Shown here: piece by piece, positions 252-3,702 of the stretch | Layout of the letters: each line of letters starts with the position of its first letter | Numbering within the stretch: the first letter of the stretch is position 1 | Assembly (NCBI GenBank): GCA_946481205.1 | Contig: CAMLNB010000158.1 | Location: 1-7,984, forward strand | Source of the DNA: an uncultured Kangiella sp. | Lineage (GTDB): Bacteria; Pseudomonadota; Gammaproteobacteria; Enterobacterales; DSM-103792 | Direction: 5' to 3' | DNA length: 7,984 nt | The notes under the pieces: generated by a model | What the model was told of the DNA's origin: nothing | Seen by the model: the letters and a program-made list of their open reading frames with translations, nothing else | Databases searched by the model: none | Program-made: the position numbers and the translations under genes

Positions 252-2576
252 ATGTTGGATATCGCGCAGCGCATTGCCTCTGAACTGAATGTCCGTCCAC
301 AGCAGGTCAATGCCGCCATCACCTTGCTCGACGAAGGCGCGACCGTGCCGTTCATTTCCCGTTACCGGAAAGAAGTCACCGGCGGCCTGACCGACACCGA
401 TCTGCGCAATCTCGAAGAGCGACTCGGCTATTTGCGCGAACTGGAAGATCGCCGCGGCGCGATCCTGAAAAGTATTGCCGATCAGGGCAAGCTGACGCTG
501 GAGCTGGAAGGCCAGATCCGTACTGTCCAGAACAAAACTGAACTCGAAGATCTGTATCTGCCATACAAGCCTAAGCGTCGCACCAAAGGCCAGATCGCCC
601 GAGAAGCCGGGCTGGAACCGTTGGCGCTGGCGCTGCACGCTGAACCGACACTGGACCCGCAAGCCGAAGCCGCGAAGTACATCGACGCTGACAAAGGCGT
701 TGCCGATGCCGCCGCCGCACTCGAAGGCGCGCGTTACATTCTGATGGAAGACTGGGCCGATGATGCCGCGCTGCTGGCCAAACTGCGGACCAAACTGCAG
801 GACAGCGCGCTGGTCGCCTCGAAAATGGTCGATGGCAAAGAGCAGGAAGGCGCCAAGTTCCGCGACTATTTTGCCTTCAGTGAACAGATCAACAAGATCC
901 CCTCGCACCGCGCGCTGGCGTTGTTCCGTGGCCGCAACGAAGGCGTGCTGACGCTGACGCTGGTGCCGCAGCAAGTCGCCGAAGGCGAGCGTGCCGATGC
1001 CGTCTGCGAAATGATGGTCGCCGAGCATGTCAACGTCGCCGACAAAAAGCGGCCGGCCGATGCCTGGCTGATGCAGACCGCGCAGTGGACCTGGCGGATC
1101 AAGCTGGCCACCAAGTTCGAAACCGAATTGTTCAACGATATCCGCGAACGGGCCGAAGCCGATGCGATCCGCGTGTTCGCCAGCAACCTGCGCGATCTGT
1201 TGATGGCGGCGCCAGCCGGCGCGAAAACCACGATGGGTCTCGATCCGGGCCTGCGCACCGGTGTCAAATGCGTCGTGGTCGACGATACCGGCAAGCTGCT
1301 GCATTACAGCGCCTTGTTCCCGCACCAGCCGCAGAACGAATGGAACAGCTCGCTTAAGCAGCTCTATCTGCTGTGTGCGAAGTTCAACGTCGGTTTGATC
1401 TCGATCGGCAACGGTACTGCCTCGCGCGAAACCGACAAGCTGGTCGGTGAGCTGCTGAAGAACCATCCGGAGATCAAGGCAACGAAAGTGGTCGTCAGCG
1501 AAGCCGGTGCGTCGGTCTATTCGGCGTCGGAACTCGCGGCAAACGAATTTCCGGATCTCGATGTCTCGTATCGTGGTGCGGTGTCGATCGCCCGTCGTTT
1601 GCAGGATCCGCTCGCTGAACTGGTCAAGATCGATCCGAAATCGATCGGTGTCGGCCAGTACCAGCACGATGTCTCGCAGGCGCAGCTCGCCAAGATGCTT
1701 GACTCGGTTGTCGAGGATTGCGTCAACGCGGTCGGTGTTGATGTGAACACCGCGTCGGTGCCGCTGCTGGCGAAAGTGTCAGGTCTGAACCGGACGTTGG
1801 CGAGCAATATCGTTGCCTTCCGCGACAAGAATGGCCGGTTCAAATCGCGCGCCGATTTGCTGAAAGTCGATCGCCTGGGCGAGCGTACCTTTGAACAAGC
1901 GGCCGGCTTCTTGCGCGTGATTGGCGGTGAGAATCCGCTTGATGCGTCGGCGGTGCACCCGGAAGCCTATCCGGTGGTCGAGAAAATCTTGAGCAAAGCC
2001 GGCAAGAACTCGATCAAGGAAGTGATGGGCAATGTCAGCTTCCTGCGCACGCTGAAAGTGACCGAATACACCGATGACAAATTCGGCGCGCCGACCGTTA
2101 CCGACATCGTCGCCGAACTGGAAAAGCCGGGTCGCGATCCGCGTGGCGAGTTCAAGACCGCGACCTTCAAGGAAGGCGTCGAGAACCTCAGCGATCTGAA
2201 AGTCGGCATGCAGCTGGAAGGCTCGGTGACCAACGTTACTGACTTTGGCGCCTTCGTCGACATCGGTGTGCACCAGGATGGTCTGGTACATATTTCCCAG
2301 TTGTCCGATCGCTTCATCAAGGATGCGCGTGAAGTGGTCAAAGCCGGTGATGTCGTCAAAGTCACCGTGATGGAAGTTGATATCCCGCGTAAGCGCGTTG
2401 GCCTGTCGATGCGCTCGGATGCACTCAGCGTGATCGCGCAGGGTGGTGTCGGCGCCGTGCCGAAGTCCGGTGGCGGCAAGCAGCCAACCAGCTTCAGCAG
2501 CAAACCGAAGCAGGACAAGCCGGCCGCGGTCGGCGGCTTCGGTGCCTTGCTGGCTGATGCGATGAAGAAGAAGTAA
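252..2576 (+). CDS. tex: Tex, S1-domain RNA-binding transcription accessory protein
   Basis: This is a 774-residue protein, the usual length for the Tex/YhgF family. The N-terminal Tex domain has the signature [18 protein letters not shown] near residue 30 and [13 protein letters not shown] near 100. A YqgF/RNase H-like domain begins near residue 327 with [10 protein letters not shown] (Asp331). A helix-hairpin-helix region runs from about 496 to 565 (VDVNTAS, then [12 protein letters not shown]). A C-terminal S1 RNA-binding domain spans about 648-721 ([21 protein letters not shown] through KRVGLSMR). The last 50 residues are a Gly/Lys/Pro-rich tail. Tex is a cytoplasmic nucleic-acid-binding protein that influences transcription and the expression of virulence or toxin genes in several bacteria, but its exact biochemical role is not settled. 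All domains look intact. No partner gene overlaps it, so it is probably transcribed alone. The ATG at 252 is preferred because of AAAGGA at 236-241. Confidence 0.97.
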
Positions 2577-2597
2577 GCCGGCGCAGTCGTCCGATCG

Positions 2598-2637
2598 GTA
2601 TTTGTCGCAATGCAGCAAACTGTATTGCGACAAATAC
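2598..2637. other. Long perfect hairpin downstream of tex
   Basis: Bases 2598-2611 and 2624-2637 are a perfect 14-bp inverted repeat. Allowing one G-U pair (2612 with 2623), the stem continues inward through 2613-2615/2620-2622. The result is an 18-bp stem with the four-base loop CAAA (2616-2619). It starts 21 bases after the tex stop codon. No T run follows on either strand, so it is not a standard intrinsic terminator. It may protect the tex mRNA 3' end, work with Rho, or be a large operator dyad. Its right arm overlaps the first AAACTGTA repeat. Confidence 0.6.
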
Positions 2638-2687
2638 AAAGTCGAGGAAACTGTAAAGCCAAATAATGAACTTGCAGGAAAACTGTA
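2617..2687 (+). promoter_or_regulatory. Three helically phased AAACTGTA repeats upstream of the sRNA promoter
   Basis: AAACTGTA occurs at 2617-2624, 2648-2655 and 2680-2687. The second and third copies share the longer context AGGAAA(A)CTGTAAA. The copies are 31 and 32 bases apart, close to three helical turns each, so they face the same side of the DNA. Relative to the predicted start at 2731 their centres are near -110, -80 and -48, positions that suit an activator contacting RNA polymerase. The third copy also forms part of the A-rich UP-like stretch. I do not recognise the regulator. The half-site resembles a Pho-box half (CTGTCAT), but the 11-bp Pho spacing is absent. Confidence 0.4.
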
Positions 2688-2695
2688 AAAAAGGT

Positions 2696-2724
2696 TTGCG
2701 CGCTGAAAACGGCAATGCTATAAA
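2696..2724 (+). promoter_or_regulatory. Strong sigma70 promoter of the candidate small RNA
   Basis: TTGCGC (2696-2701) and TATAAA (2719-2724) are separated by the ideal 17 bases. A TG at 2716-2717 adds an extended -10 element. The region at 2671-2691 is A-rich, like an UP element. The discriminator after the -10 box is ACGCCC, and GC-rich discriminators are typical of promoters under stringent control, such as those of stable RNAs. Transcription should start near 2731. Confidence 0.7.
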
Positions 2725-2730
2725 ACGCCC

Positions 2731-2816
2731 GCTAGCGACACAAAGAAGCACCGAGGACACGGTGCCCTGCAGACTGGAAAACTTCCGAAGCCCCCGTAAA
2801 AAGGGGCTTTTTATTT
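2731..2816 (+). ncRNA. Candidate small RNA of about 86 nt
   Basis: This is the stretch between a strong promoter (2696-2724) and a strong intrinsic terminator (2788-2816), with no credible reading frame inside. The predicted RNA begins with about 17 unpaired, A-rich bases. A 6-bp hairpin (2748-2753 with 2760-2765, GCACCG/CGGTGC) then shows AGGACA in its six-base loop. A weak GGAA/TTCC stem (2776-2779/2783-2786) follows, and then the terminator hairpin and its U tail. The GGA in a hexaloop is the shape bound by CsrA/RsmA, but only two GGA motifs are present, so it is not an obvious CsrB/RsmZ-type sponge. The CUUCC and CCCCC runs could pair with Shine-Dalgarno sequences, and the U tail could bind Hfq. 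It matches none of the common enterobacterial or pseudomonad small RNAs that I can recall. A leader of a downstream gene is unlikely because the next gene runs the other way. Confidence 0.6.
2788..2816 (+). terminator. Intrinsic terminator of the candidate small RNA
   Basis: AAGCCCC (2788-2794) pairs with GGGGCTT (2803-2809) around an 8-base A-rich loop, followed by TTTTTATTT (2808-2816). The U tail lies on the + strand only, so it does not terminate the converging - strand gene. It is too far from tex (over 200 bases, with a promoter between) to be only the tex terminator, although it would stop read-through from tex. Confidence 0.87.
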
Positions 2817-2864
2817 GCCTGCGATTTCATGGCTGAACGGCCCTGCCGCAAGCAAATAACCGGT

Positions 2865-3086
2865 TCAGGCATGGCGACGCGGCTTTCGCACCGGACGCCG
2901 GCGGCTTTGCATCGCCGCTTCTTCCTGGCGATGACTGAACCGCAAGTTCAGCACCAAGAGGCCGGCGACAATCAACAGCGCGCCGGGAATGAATCGGGCG
3001 CCGGATTCGATCATCACCAGCGCCAGCAGGCCGAAGCCCACATAGACATAAGGCAGGGCTTCATAAAGGGGTTTCGGCAGCACCAT
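2865..3086 (-). CDS. Small two-helix inner-membrane protein of unknown function
   Basis: This predicted protein has 73 residues. The start at 3086 is chosen because GGAGG (3092-3096, read on the - strand) stands five bases before its ATG. A longer in-frame version starting at 3122 lacks such a site. The protein opens with MVLPKPLYEALPY and has two hydrophobic segments at about residues 13-27 and 33-48, with a short loop containing Glu27 and Arg31. It ends in a strongly basic tail (SRRRPVRKPRRHA). By the positive-inside rule both ends should face the cytoplasm. I do not recognise a named family, though small proteins of this layout occur in related bacteria. It is divergent from dsbB with about 130 bases between the starts, so regulatory DNA could be shared. 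Its base composition resembles its neighbours. Confidence 0.75.
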   Translation of the reverse strand: MVLPKPLYEALPYVYVGFGLLALVMIESGARFIPGALLIVAGLLVLNLRFSHRQEEAAMQSRRRPVRKPRRHA

Positions 3087-3203
3087 AACGGCCTCCGCAA
3101 ACAAGTGACACGGACAGCTCACCGGTAGGTTTTACCACCGCTGCCGGCGTTTGCATCACCGGCAGGAACCGGTACAGTGGCAAGCCTTTCGCGCCATCGG
3201 TTG

Positions 3204-3209
3204 TAAGAT
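3204..3209 (+). promoter_or_regulatory. Possible -10 box immediately upstream of dsbB
   Basis: TAAGAT ends eight bases before the dsbB ATG at 3217. If it is a working -10 element, the mRNA would start at about the ATG itself and be leaderless or nearly so. That would fit the lack of a good Shine-Dalgarno sequence. No convincing -35 box lies at the right spacing, so this is weak evidence. Confidence 0.28.
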
Positions 3210-3216
3210 ATTCGCC

Positions 3217-3702
3217 ATGCACGGACGTACCTTCAATCTTCTGCTCGCTTTCATTTGCCACGAACTGCTGGTCGCGGCCTATTACTTTCAATATGTCGAA
3301 GGCCTGAACCCGTGCCCGCTGTGCATCATCCAGCGGGTGGTCGTGTTTGCCCTTGGCGTCTGGTTCCTGCTGATGGCAGGCGTCAACGTCAAACCCGGCG
3401 GCATCGGCGCCAAGCTGTTCAACGGCGTCGGAGTCGTGATCAGCGCGGTCGGCATTGCGGCTGCCGGTCGTCAGGTTTGGCTGCAATCGCTGCCGGCGGC
3501 GGAAGTGCCGGCCTGTGGCCCGGATCTGGGCTACATGATGGAAGTGTTCTCGGCCGGGGAGATTTTCAGCGAGTTGCTGAAGGGCAGCGGCGATTGCGCC
3601 AAGGTTGATTGGTCGTTCCTGGGCCTGTCGATGGGCGCCTGGATGCTGGTGGTATTCAGTCTGTTTGCGCTGTTTTTCTTGCTGCGGGCTGTGCGCAAGT
3701 AA
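3217..3702 (+). CDS. dsbB: DsbB, disulfide bond formation protein
   Basis: This is a 161-residue inner-membrane protein with four hydrophobic segments at about residues 6-24, 41-56, 67-84 and 138-156. DsbB re-oxidises the periplasmic thiol oxidase DsbA and passes the electrons to quinone. The first periplasmic loop carries the redox pair Cys33-Pro-Leu-Cys36, followed by Arg40, which matches the quinone-interacting Arg48 of E. coli DsbB. The second pair is Cys100 (in PACGPDLGYM) and Cys127 (in GSGDCAKVDW). An extra Cys14 in the first helix is common in the family. The GLSMGAW motif before the last helix is also characteristic. The ATG at 3217 places the first membrane segment correctly. An upstream in-frame ATG at 3151 would add 22 atypical residues and is rejected. 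No strong ribosome-binding site is visible. No dsbA is present in the window. Confidence 0.97.
   Translation: MHGRTFNLLLAFICHELLVAAYYFQYVEGLNPCPLCIIQRVVVFALGVWFLLMAGVNVKPGGIGAKLFNGVGVVISAVGIAAAGRQVWLQSLPAAEVPACGPDLGYMMEVFSAGEIFSELLKGSGDCAKVDWSFLGLSMGAWMLVVFSLFALFFLLRAVRK

Follow-up and report, generated by a model that had tools for sequence, protein, structure and literature searches.

In the analysed window, a stretch of 7,984 nucleotides from an uncultured Kangiella sp., the region between tex and dsbB almost certainly contains a real, unannotated gene for a small RNA (sRNA) of a new family, with a predicted transcript of about 82–86 nt on the forward strand (positions 2731–2814). Judged from the compared sequences, this sRNA probably acts in trans, pairing with the 5′ leader of the hfq mRNA and adjusting the supply of Hfq. 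The gene itself is accepted because its promoter layout is kept in all 24 sequences (the window and 23 relatives), because it contains a covarying hairpin and because tex lies directly upstream of it in 23 of 23 relatives; the window alone would provide weak evidence. The sRNA is presumably transcribed.

The homologues, all located 3′ of tex, were collected by DNA similarity, by eye and with two covariance models. A DNA search found the sRNA in genomes G062 (88% identity, E 1e-45) and G018 (78%, E 4e-23), and a further copy in G042 was spotted by eye. The first covariance model (R1), made from three sequences, recovered the sRNA in 15 of 40 genomes of a second family (that of G176, which we take to be Kangiellaceae) at 44 bits or more; two further matches that passed E 0.01, bringing the total to 17/40, scored 25–27 bits and were regarded as chance. 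The second model (R2), made from 19 sequences, was run on 394 genomes of the order and gave 26 genomes with E ≤ 0.01, namely three Permianibacter-like genomes, 14 of the second family, five with new copies at the tex locus (G061, G007, G041, G032 and G017), three with a match at another locus and one taken as chance. A class-wide model search of 369 genomes yielded 54 that pass E 0.1, where only G062 was strong (115.8 bits), and the remaining matches (≤31.5 bits) were taken as chance as a group rather than one by one. Five weak R2 matches (23.9–25.6 bits) in genomes without the sRNA lie near neither tex nor dsbB and were likewise put down to chance. One 25.6-bit match, at 1501–1577 of L312 (G296), has the similar-looking CCTGCTAACTGGAAA ahead of a terminator, at a distance from tex and dsbB, and is either chance or a remote relative. 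The three matches at another locus, in L119, L120 and L122 (G186, G175 and G275), are weak R2 matches of 28–35 bits around positions 1500–1580. Each adjoins a hemE-like gene (named by eye) and lies on the strand opposite to it, with a similar layout of TATAA, A-rich run, hairpin, CACGCT/GCGCTGAAA-like segment and terminator; no Rfam family matched at this place, which may hold another, distantly related RNA of this type.

The neighbours of the sRNA gene were identified with Pfam as Tex, upstream, and DsbB, and dsbB is within reach in 20 of the 23 relatives. Between the sRNA and dsbB, the window encodes a small membrane protein of 85 aa (2865–3122, reverse strand), for which neither a Pfam nor an NCBIfam model matched. 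The protein collection contains 12 homologues of it, of which a single one, from Permianibacter sp. IMCC34836, carries an organism name, and weaker homologues are present in some relatives. Since this protein was found at 7 of the 18 loci of the first set of relatives and at none of the five later loci, the presence of the sRNA is not linked to this gene. In a Tex tree of 23 rows, from which G032 was dropped for want of a usable piece, the window falls beside G062, with 95% identity. Just past the tex stop codon, at 2598–2637 of the window, there is a perfect 14-bp inverted repeat (GTATTTGTCGCAAT...ATTGCGACAAATAC), and L094/L095 contain another perfect inverted repeat, of different sequence, upstream of the sRNA.

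All elements of the sRNA gene lie on the forward strand. The first-pass annotation had described a TTGCGC-17-TATAAA promoter with an extended −10 element and an A-rich upstream stretch, and these are indeed present. The −35 element TTGCGC occupies 2696–2701, and TTGC occurs at the 17-nt spacing in 24/24 sequences; the extended −10 element TGC-TATAAA spans 2716–2724 and is kept as TGn-TATAA(A/C), again in 24/24. The UP-element-like A-rich stretch 5′ of the −35 element (TGTAAAAAA, 2684–2694) also occurs in G062, G018 and G042 and is more variable in the other relatives. A consensus promoter scan of 2300–3300 in the window alone listed no promoter. The discriminator ACGCCC (5/6 GC) is GC-rich as had been noted, while the stringent-type growth-rate control read from it was rejected: GC content at this place ranges from 2/8 to 6/8 in the other sequences, so that GC-richness is not conserved and such control is unsupported.

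The predicted RNA begins with an unpaired 5′ segment (2731–2747), which starts with GCTAGC in 23/24 sequences (G042 differs) and is A-rich before the hairpin. Hairpin 1 (2748–2765) consists of GCACCG and CGGTGC around an AGGACA loop. An alignment of the region downstream of tex, a check that the first-pass annotation had proposed, revealed compensatory changes in this conserved hairpin: five of its six pairs show double changes and 91.9% of cells are paired, with 27 double-change cells compared to 6.2 in shuffles (0/500 as good) in a 19-sequence alignment that was fitted to the hairpin structure by R1 and hence leans towards it. Slid controls gave 11–53% paired cells, and the outermost pair fails to form in 9 of the 19 sequences. 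Downstream of the hairpin, the unpaired 12-mer TGCAGACTGGAA (2768–2779), the proposed seed for hfq mRNA, is identical in 19/19 sequences of alignment A4 and has its complement in hfq leaders. Among the five sequences found later, it is kept in G061 and G007, carries one change in G041 and differs in G032 and G017. The strong intrinsic terminator with a U tail, also recognised in the first-pass annotation, lies at 2788–2812, where AAGCCCC (2788–2794) pairs with GGGGCTT (2803–2809) and TTTTT follows; a 3′ hairpin of −9.9 kcal/mol or lower ending in a T run is found in 24/24 sequences. In the window alone, a terminator scan gave three sites versus 1.8 in shuffles. The 84-nt transcript folds better than its shuffles (z of −2.57, 3/200 as good).

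The claims that the region holds no credible reading frame, is neither a leader nor a coding gene and belongs to no recognised RNA family have all survived the comparison. The window transcript contains no ATG, and the one GTG frame of 24 codons that starts within it is absent from G062, the closest relative. No open reading frame of at least 10 codons is common to the 24 sequences, and those seen in relatives differ in place and length. The gene is free-standing, with its own conserved promoter and terminator and with tex always upstream. The covariance search with Rfam 15 gave no match at the gathering cut-off in the window and 18 related loci, and nine further loci, searched at E up to 1, gave a single match, away from the sRNA. 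Below the cut-off, STnc100 (RF02076) scored 18.1 bits against a required 47 (E 0.03–0.06), with a match that starts upstream of the promoter. By sequence, the locus displays the features of a trans-acting base-pairing sRNA: the gene stands alone, with a promoter and an intrinsic terminator of its own, and its conserved unpaired seed has a conserved complementary target in 18 of 23 genomes.

This target is the hfq leader. The hfq gene was retrieved from 25 genomes, of which 23 carry the sRNA; the leader of the window's own organism is not in this set. For each genome, the longest Watson–Crick run was determined between a 27-nt segment of its own sRNA and the 170 nt preceding the hfq start codon. 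A perfect match of 9–14 nt was obtained in 18 of the 23 genomes, and these sites end 54–155 nt before the start codon. The longest runs were observed in G062 (14 nt) and G032 (13 nt), followed by 11 nt in G316, G325, G387, G306, G258, G343, G334, G762, G267 and G370, 10 nt in G018, G276, G286 and G176, and 9 nt in G218 and G061. The remaining genomes reached 8 nt (G352 and G041), 7 nt (G017), 6 nt (G042) and 5 nt (G007). Reversed hfq leaders gave longest matches of 5–9 nt. When each leader was shuffled 2000 times with dinucleotides preserved, 19 of the 23 leaders were equalled by at most 28 shuffles; the G352 leader is weak (equalled by 139/2000), and those of G017, G042 and G007 were equalled by at least 582/2000. 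In G042 and G007, the sRNA segment is present and the hfq leader lacks a match, while in G017 the sRNA segment differs and the leader also lacks a match. The clearest single case is G062, where the sole perfect TTTCCAGTCTGCA in the genome besides the sRNA gene lies in the hfq leader, ending 59 nt before the start codon of a protein assigned to Hfq by two NCBIfam models above cut-off. The matches of G018 (TTTTTCCAGT, 10 nt at the other flank) and G032 (TAAATTTTTCAAA) do not include the AGTCTGC core.

The two partners also appear to change together. The base before UGCAGAC in the sRNA is U and the facing hfq base is A in G316, G286, G218, G325 and G176, whereas G276, which belongs to the clade of these five, and most genomes of the other clade have C in the sRNA and G in hfq; the exact place of G276 within its clade is not settled by the Tex tree. 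In G062, C faces A as a mismatch at this position, and the match is instead prolonged by AAAA-UUUU at the opposite flank. In G032, the sRNA segment has changed and the hfq leader complements this genome's own version over 13 nt (0/2000 shuffles), both being A+T rich. Across the 18 genomes with the core, own sRNA–hfq pairs outperformed swapped ones (188 versus 172.6 ± 4.1, 0/20000), a difference inflated by kinship; as the genomes are related, none of the sRNA–hfq counts are independent. As an absence control, 25 second-family genomes without a recognised sRNA were inspected; hfq was present in 24, and 23 leaders were usable. The hfq element was absent from 20 of these 23 leaders. The other three, from G361, G396 and G764 (L245, L297 and L310), carry CAGTCTGCAGG although R2 finds no sRNA in these genomes, which reflects either an assembly gap or true absence. 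Combined, the complementarity and its co-change make the hfq mRNA a likely conserved target of the sRNA.

Pairing with the hfq leader could be real and yet serve a different end, if the leader acted as a sponge that ties up the sRNA and the working targets were other mRNAs. Genome-wide searches bear on this reading. In 12 sRNA-bearing genomes, the complement of the sRNA segment with some wobble (TTTYCAGTYTGYR) gave 80 sites versus 30 for the reversed pattern, 11 of the 80 being the sRNA gene itself and 69 others. In 10 genomes, CAGTCTGCAGG gave 45 sites versus 5 for the reversed pattern, comprising nine sRNA genes, nine hfq leaders and 27 others. Complementary sites thus exceed the reversed controls (69 non-self versus 30, and 27 beyond the sRNA gene and hfq versus 5). 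Some of them fall at ribosome-binding sites (a TonB-dependent receptor in G218 and a FadE-like gene in G334), and the hfq sites themselves lie away from the ribosome-binding site, as a sponge would allow. However, each of those other leader sites was confined to a single one of the genomes compared. A translated-similarity comparison of 112 of the 114 sites (69 plus 43 of 45, omitting one sRNA gene and one hfq leader) showed recurrence at the hfq leader (nine genomes), the sRNA gene (eight), one coding-antisense place (five) and two coding-frame pairs; no leader other than that of hfq recurred among the 112 sites, a comparison that may miss the leaders of genes that are short or diverged. We regard the sponge as unlikely.

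Several individual sites deserve mention. The site in L191 (G218) lies next to the Shine–Dalgarno sequence (SD) of the TonB-dependent receptor gene (Plug domain), and that in L272 (G334) is a single-genome leader site of the FadE-like gene, named by eye; both are candidate extra targets. Three more single-genome candidates are leader sites in L256 (G352), L282 (G343) and L207 (G018), which belong to one PspA-like gene and two genes like those of efflux membrane-fusion proteins, again named by eye. A site shared by five genomes, some 2 kb downstream of dsbB, was set aside: it lies on the strand opposite to a coding frame and looks like coding conservation, with a peptide that presumably resembles a histidine-kinase motif.

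The shared 10–12 bp could also be a DNA site for one transcription factor, located inside a real sRNA gene and upstream of hfq. An alignment of 12 hfq leaders, nine from genomes with the sRNA and three from genomes in which no copy was recognised, shows that the conservation of TCAGTCTGC(A/G)GGCTTT reaches past the pairing part, as might be expected of such a site. A fixed protein site does not sit easily with the observation that the match slides, reaching to the left of the core in G062 (TTTTCCAGTCTGCA) and to its right in other genomes (CAGTCTGCAGG and AGTCTGCAAGA). Moreover, the segment is situated in the unpaired part of a structured transcript, is not palindromic throughout and differs on both sides together in G032. 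This explanation has a slim chance, a little below that of the sponge.

Even less probable is an RNA that titrates CsrA/RsmA, with the GGA of the hairpin loop and the conserved CUGGAA binding the protein. Some GGA does occur in or next to the hairpin in 20/24 sequences, mostly in stems, and Rfam returned a weak RsmY (RF00195) match, though on the opposite strand and at 15.5 bits (14.5 in a shorter search) against a cut-off of 57. We place this possibility low because AGGA is found in the hairpin part of only 5/24 sequences (the window, G062, G018, G276 and G017); outside these five, GGA is missing (4/24) or occurs at shifting places with the Gs mostly in the stem, and repeated GGA exposed in hairpin loops, the hallmark of such RNAs, was not seen. 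That the region is nothing but the 3′ end of tex with its terminator, next to a promoter arisen by chance, is hardly credible: past tex, the first site resembling a terminator that the scan listed on this strand is indeed that of the sRNA, but the promoter layout, its spacing and the transcript from the predicted first base are conserved across distant genomes.

For the preferred reading, a base-pairing sRNA acting on hfq, the following mechanism can be proposed. Transcription of the sRNA would start at a sigma-70-type extended −10 promoter of its own and stop at the intrinsic terminator. Its conserved unpaired C(C/U)UGCAGACUGG would then pair with the hfq leader, in most relatives 54–155 nt upstream of the start codon, with Hfq probably bound to both RNAs, and this pairing would adjust the amount of Hfq made. 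We infer that the pairing takes place in the cell with the participation of Hfq, and that its effect is feedback on Hfq. The A-rich 5′ part and the U tail are only suggestive of Hfq-dependence of the sRNA. Given the distance of the sites from the start codon, plain blocking of the ribosome site is not a likely route; it is more likely that the sRNA would bring in Hfq and RNase E or cause the leader to refold. Folding of leaders with the hfq site blocked showed no consistent opening or closing of the SD. A hairpin that presents the hfq element, which single folds had made seem likely, was not supported by the alignment fold, in which only four unvarying pairs were found. We lean moderately towards negative rather than positive feedback, because, of the three trans-acting sRNAs on hfq that were found in the literature, two repress it.

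Base-pairing sRNAs that act on hfq are a kind already known from at least three other RNAs. The trans-encoded sX13 of Xanthomonas lowers hfq mRNA and Hfq::GFP (PMC3771888). It shares with the present sRNA its trans-encoded nature and hfq as a target, as proposed here, but it is a 115-nt RNA encoded downstream of polA, works through C-rich loops on G-rich motifs independently of Hfq, and has its motif 9 nt after the hfq AUG rather than far upstream of the start (PMC3771888). MtvR of Burkholderia cenocepacia binds to the 5′ leader of hfq and reduces the level of this mRNA, which corresponds to the location proposed here; it differs in its length of 136 nt, its restriction to the Burkholderia cepacia complex and its pairing, drawn over the ribosome-binding site and start codon (PMC4046987). 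For GssA of Pseudomonas aeruginosa, a site in hfq mRNA was likewise predicted and an effect on hfq::sfGFP measured; GssA raises hfq translation, while its effect on the hfq mRNA depends on conditions (PMC9973299). Its site includes the ribosome-binding site, and its gene context differs from the tex locus (PMC9973299). In contrast to MtvR and GssA, the sites found here do not overlap the hfq ribosome-binding site. Two cis-antisense RNAs to hfq genes have also been reported, one in Legionella and h2cR in Burkholderia.

Class II Hfq-dependent sRNAs such as ChiX possess an A-rich unpaired segment and a 3′ terminator with a U tail. Both features are predicted from the sequence of the tex-locus sRNA as well, which differs in being without an Rfam match. 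A paper that mentions this class also suggests that undefined sRNAs contribute to hfq autoregulation in E. coli (PMC6348989). No literature on this sRNA locus, or on small RNAs of Permianibacter or Aliikangiella, was found in a search that covered subscription journals thinly; as far as the literature was searched, neither the family nor its base-by-base co-change with hfq has been described before.

Many sRNAs share Hfq as a partner, and the control of its level is not yet fully settled. The odds appear even that the sRNA is a dedicated regulator of Hfq supply across several bacterial families, co-evolved base by base with the hfq leader in a feedback loop that itself uses Hfq. The finding adds an RNA family missing from Rfam 15, and a conserved sRNA–hfq pair with co-changing bases in environmental bacteria would make the role of sRNAs in hfq autoregulation directly testable.
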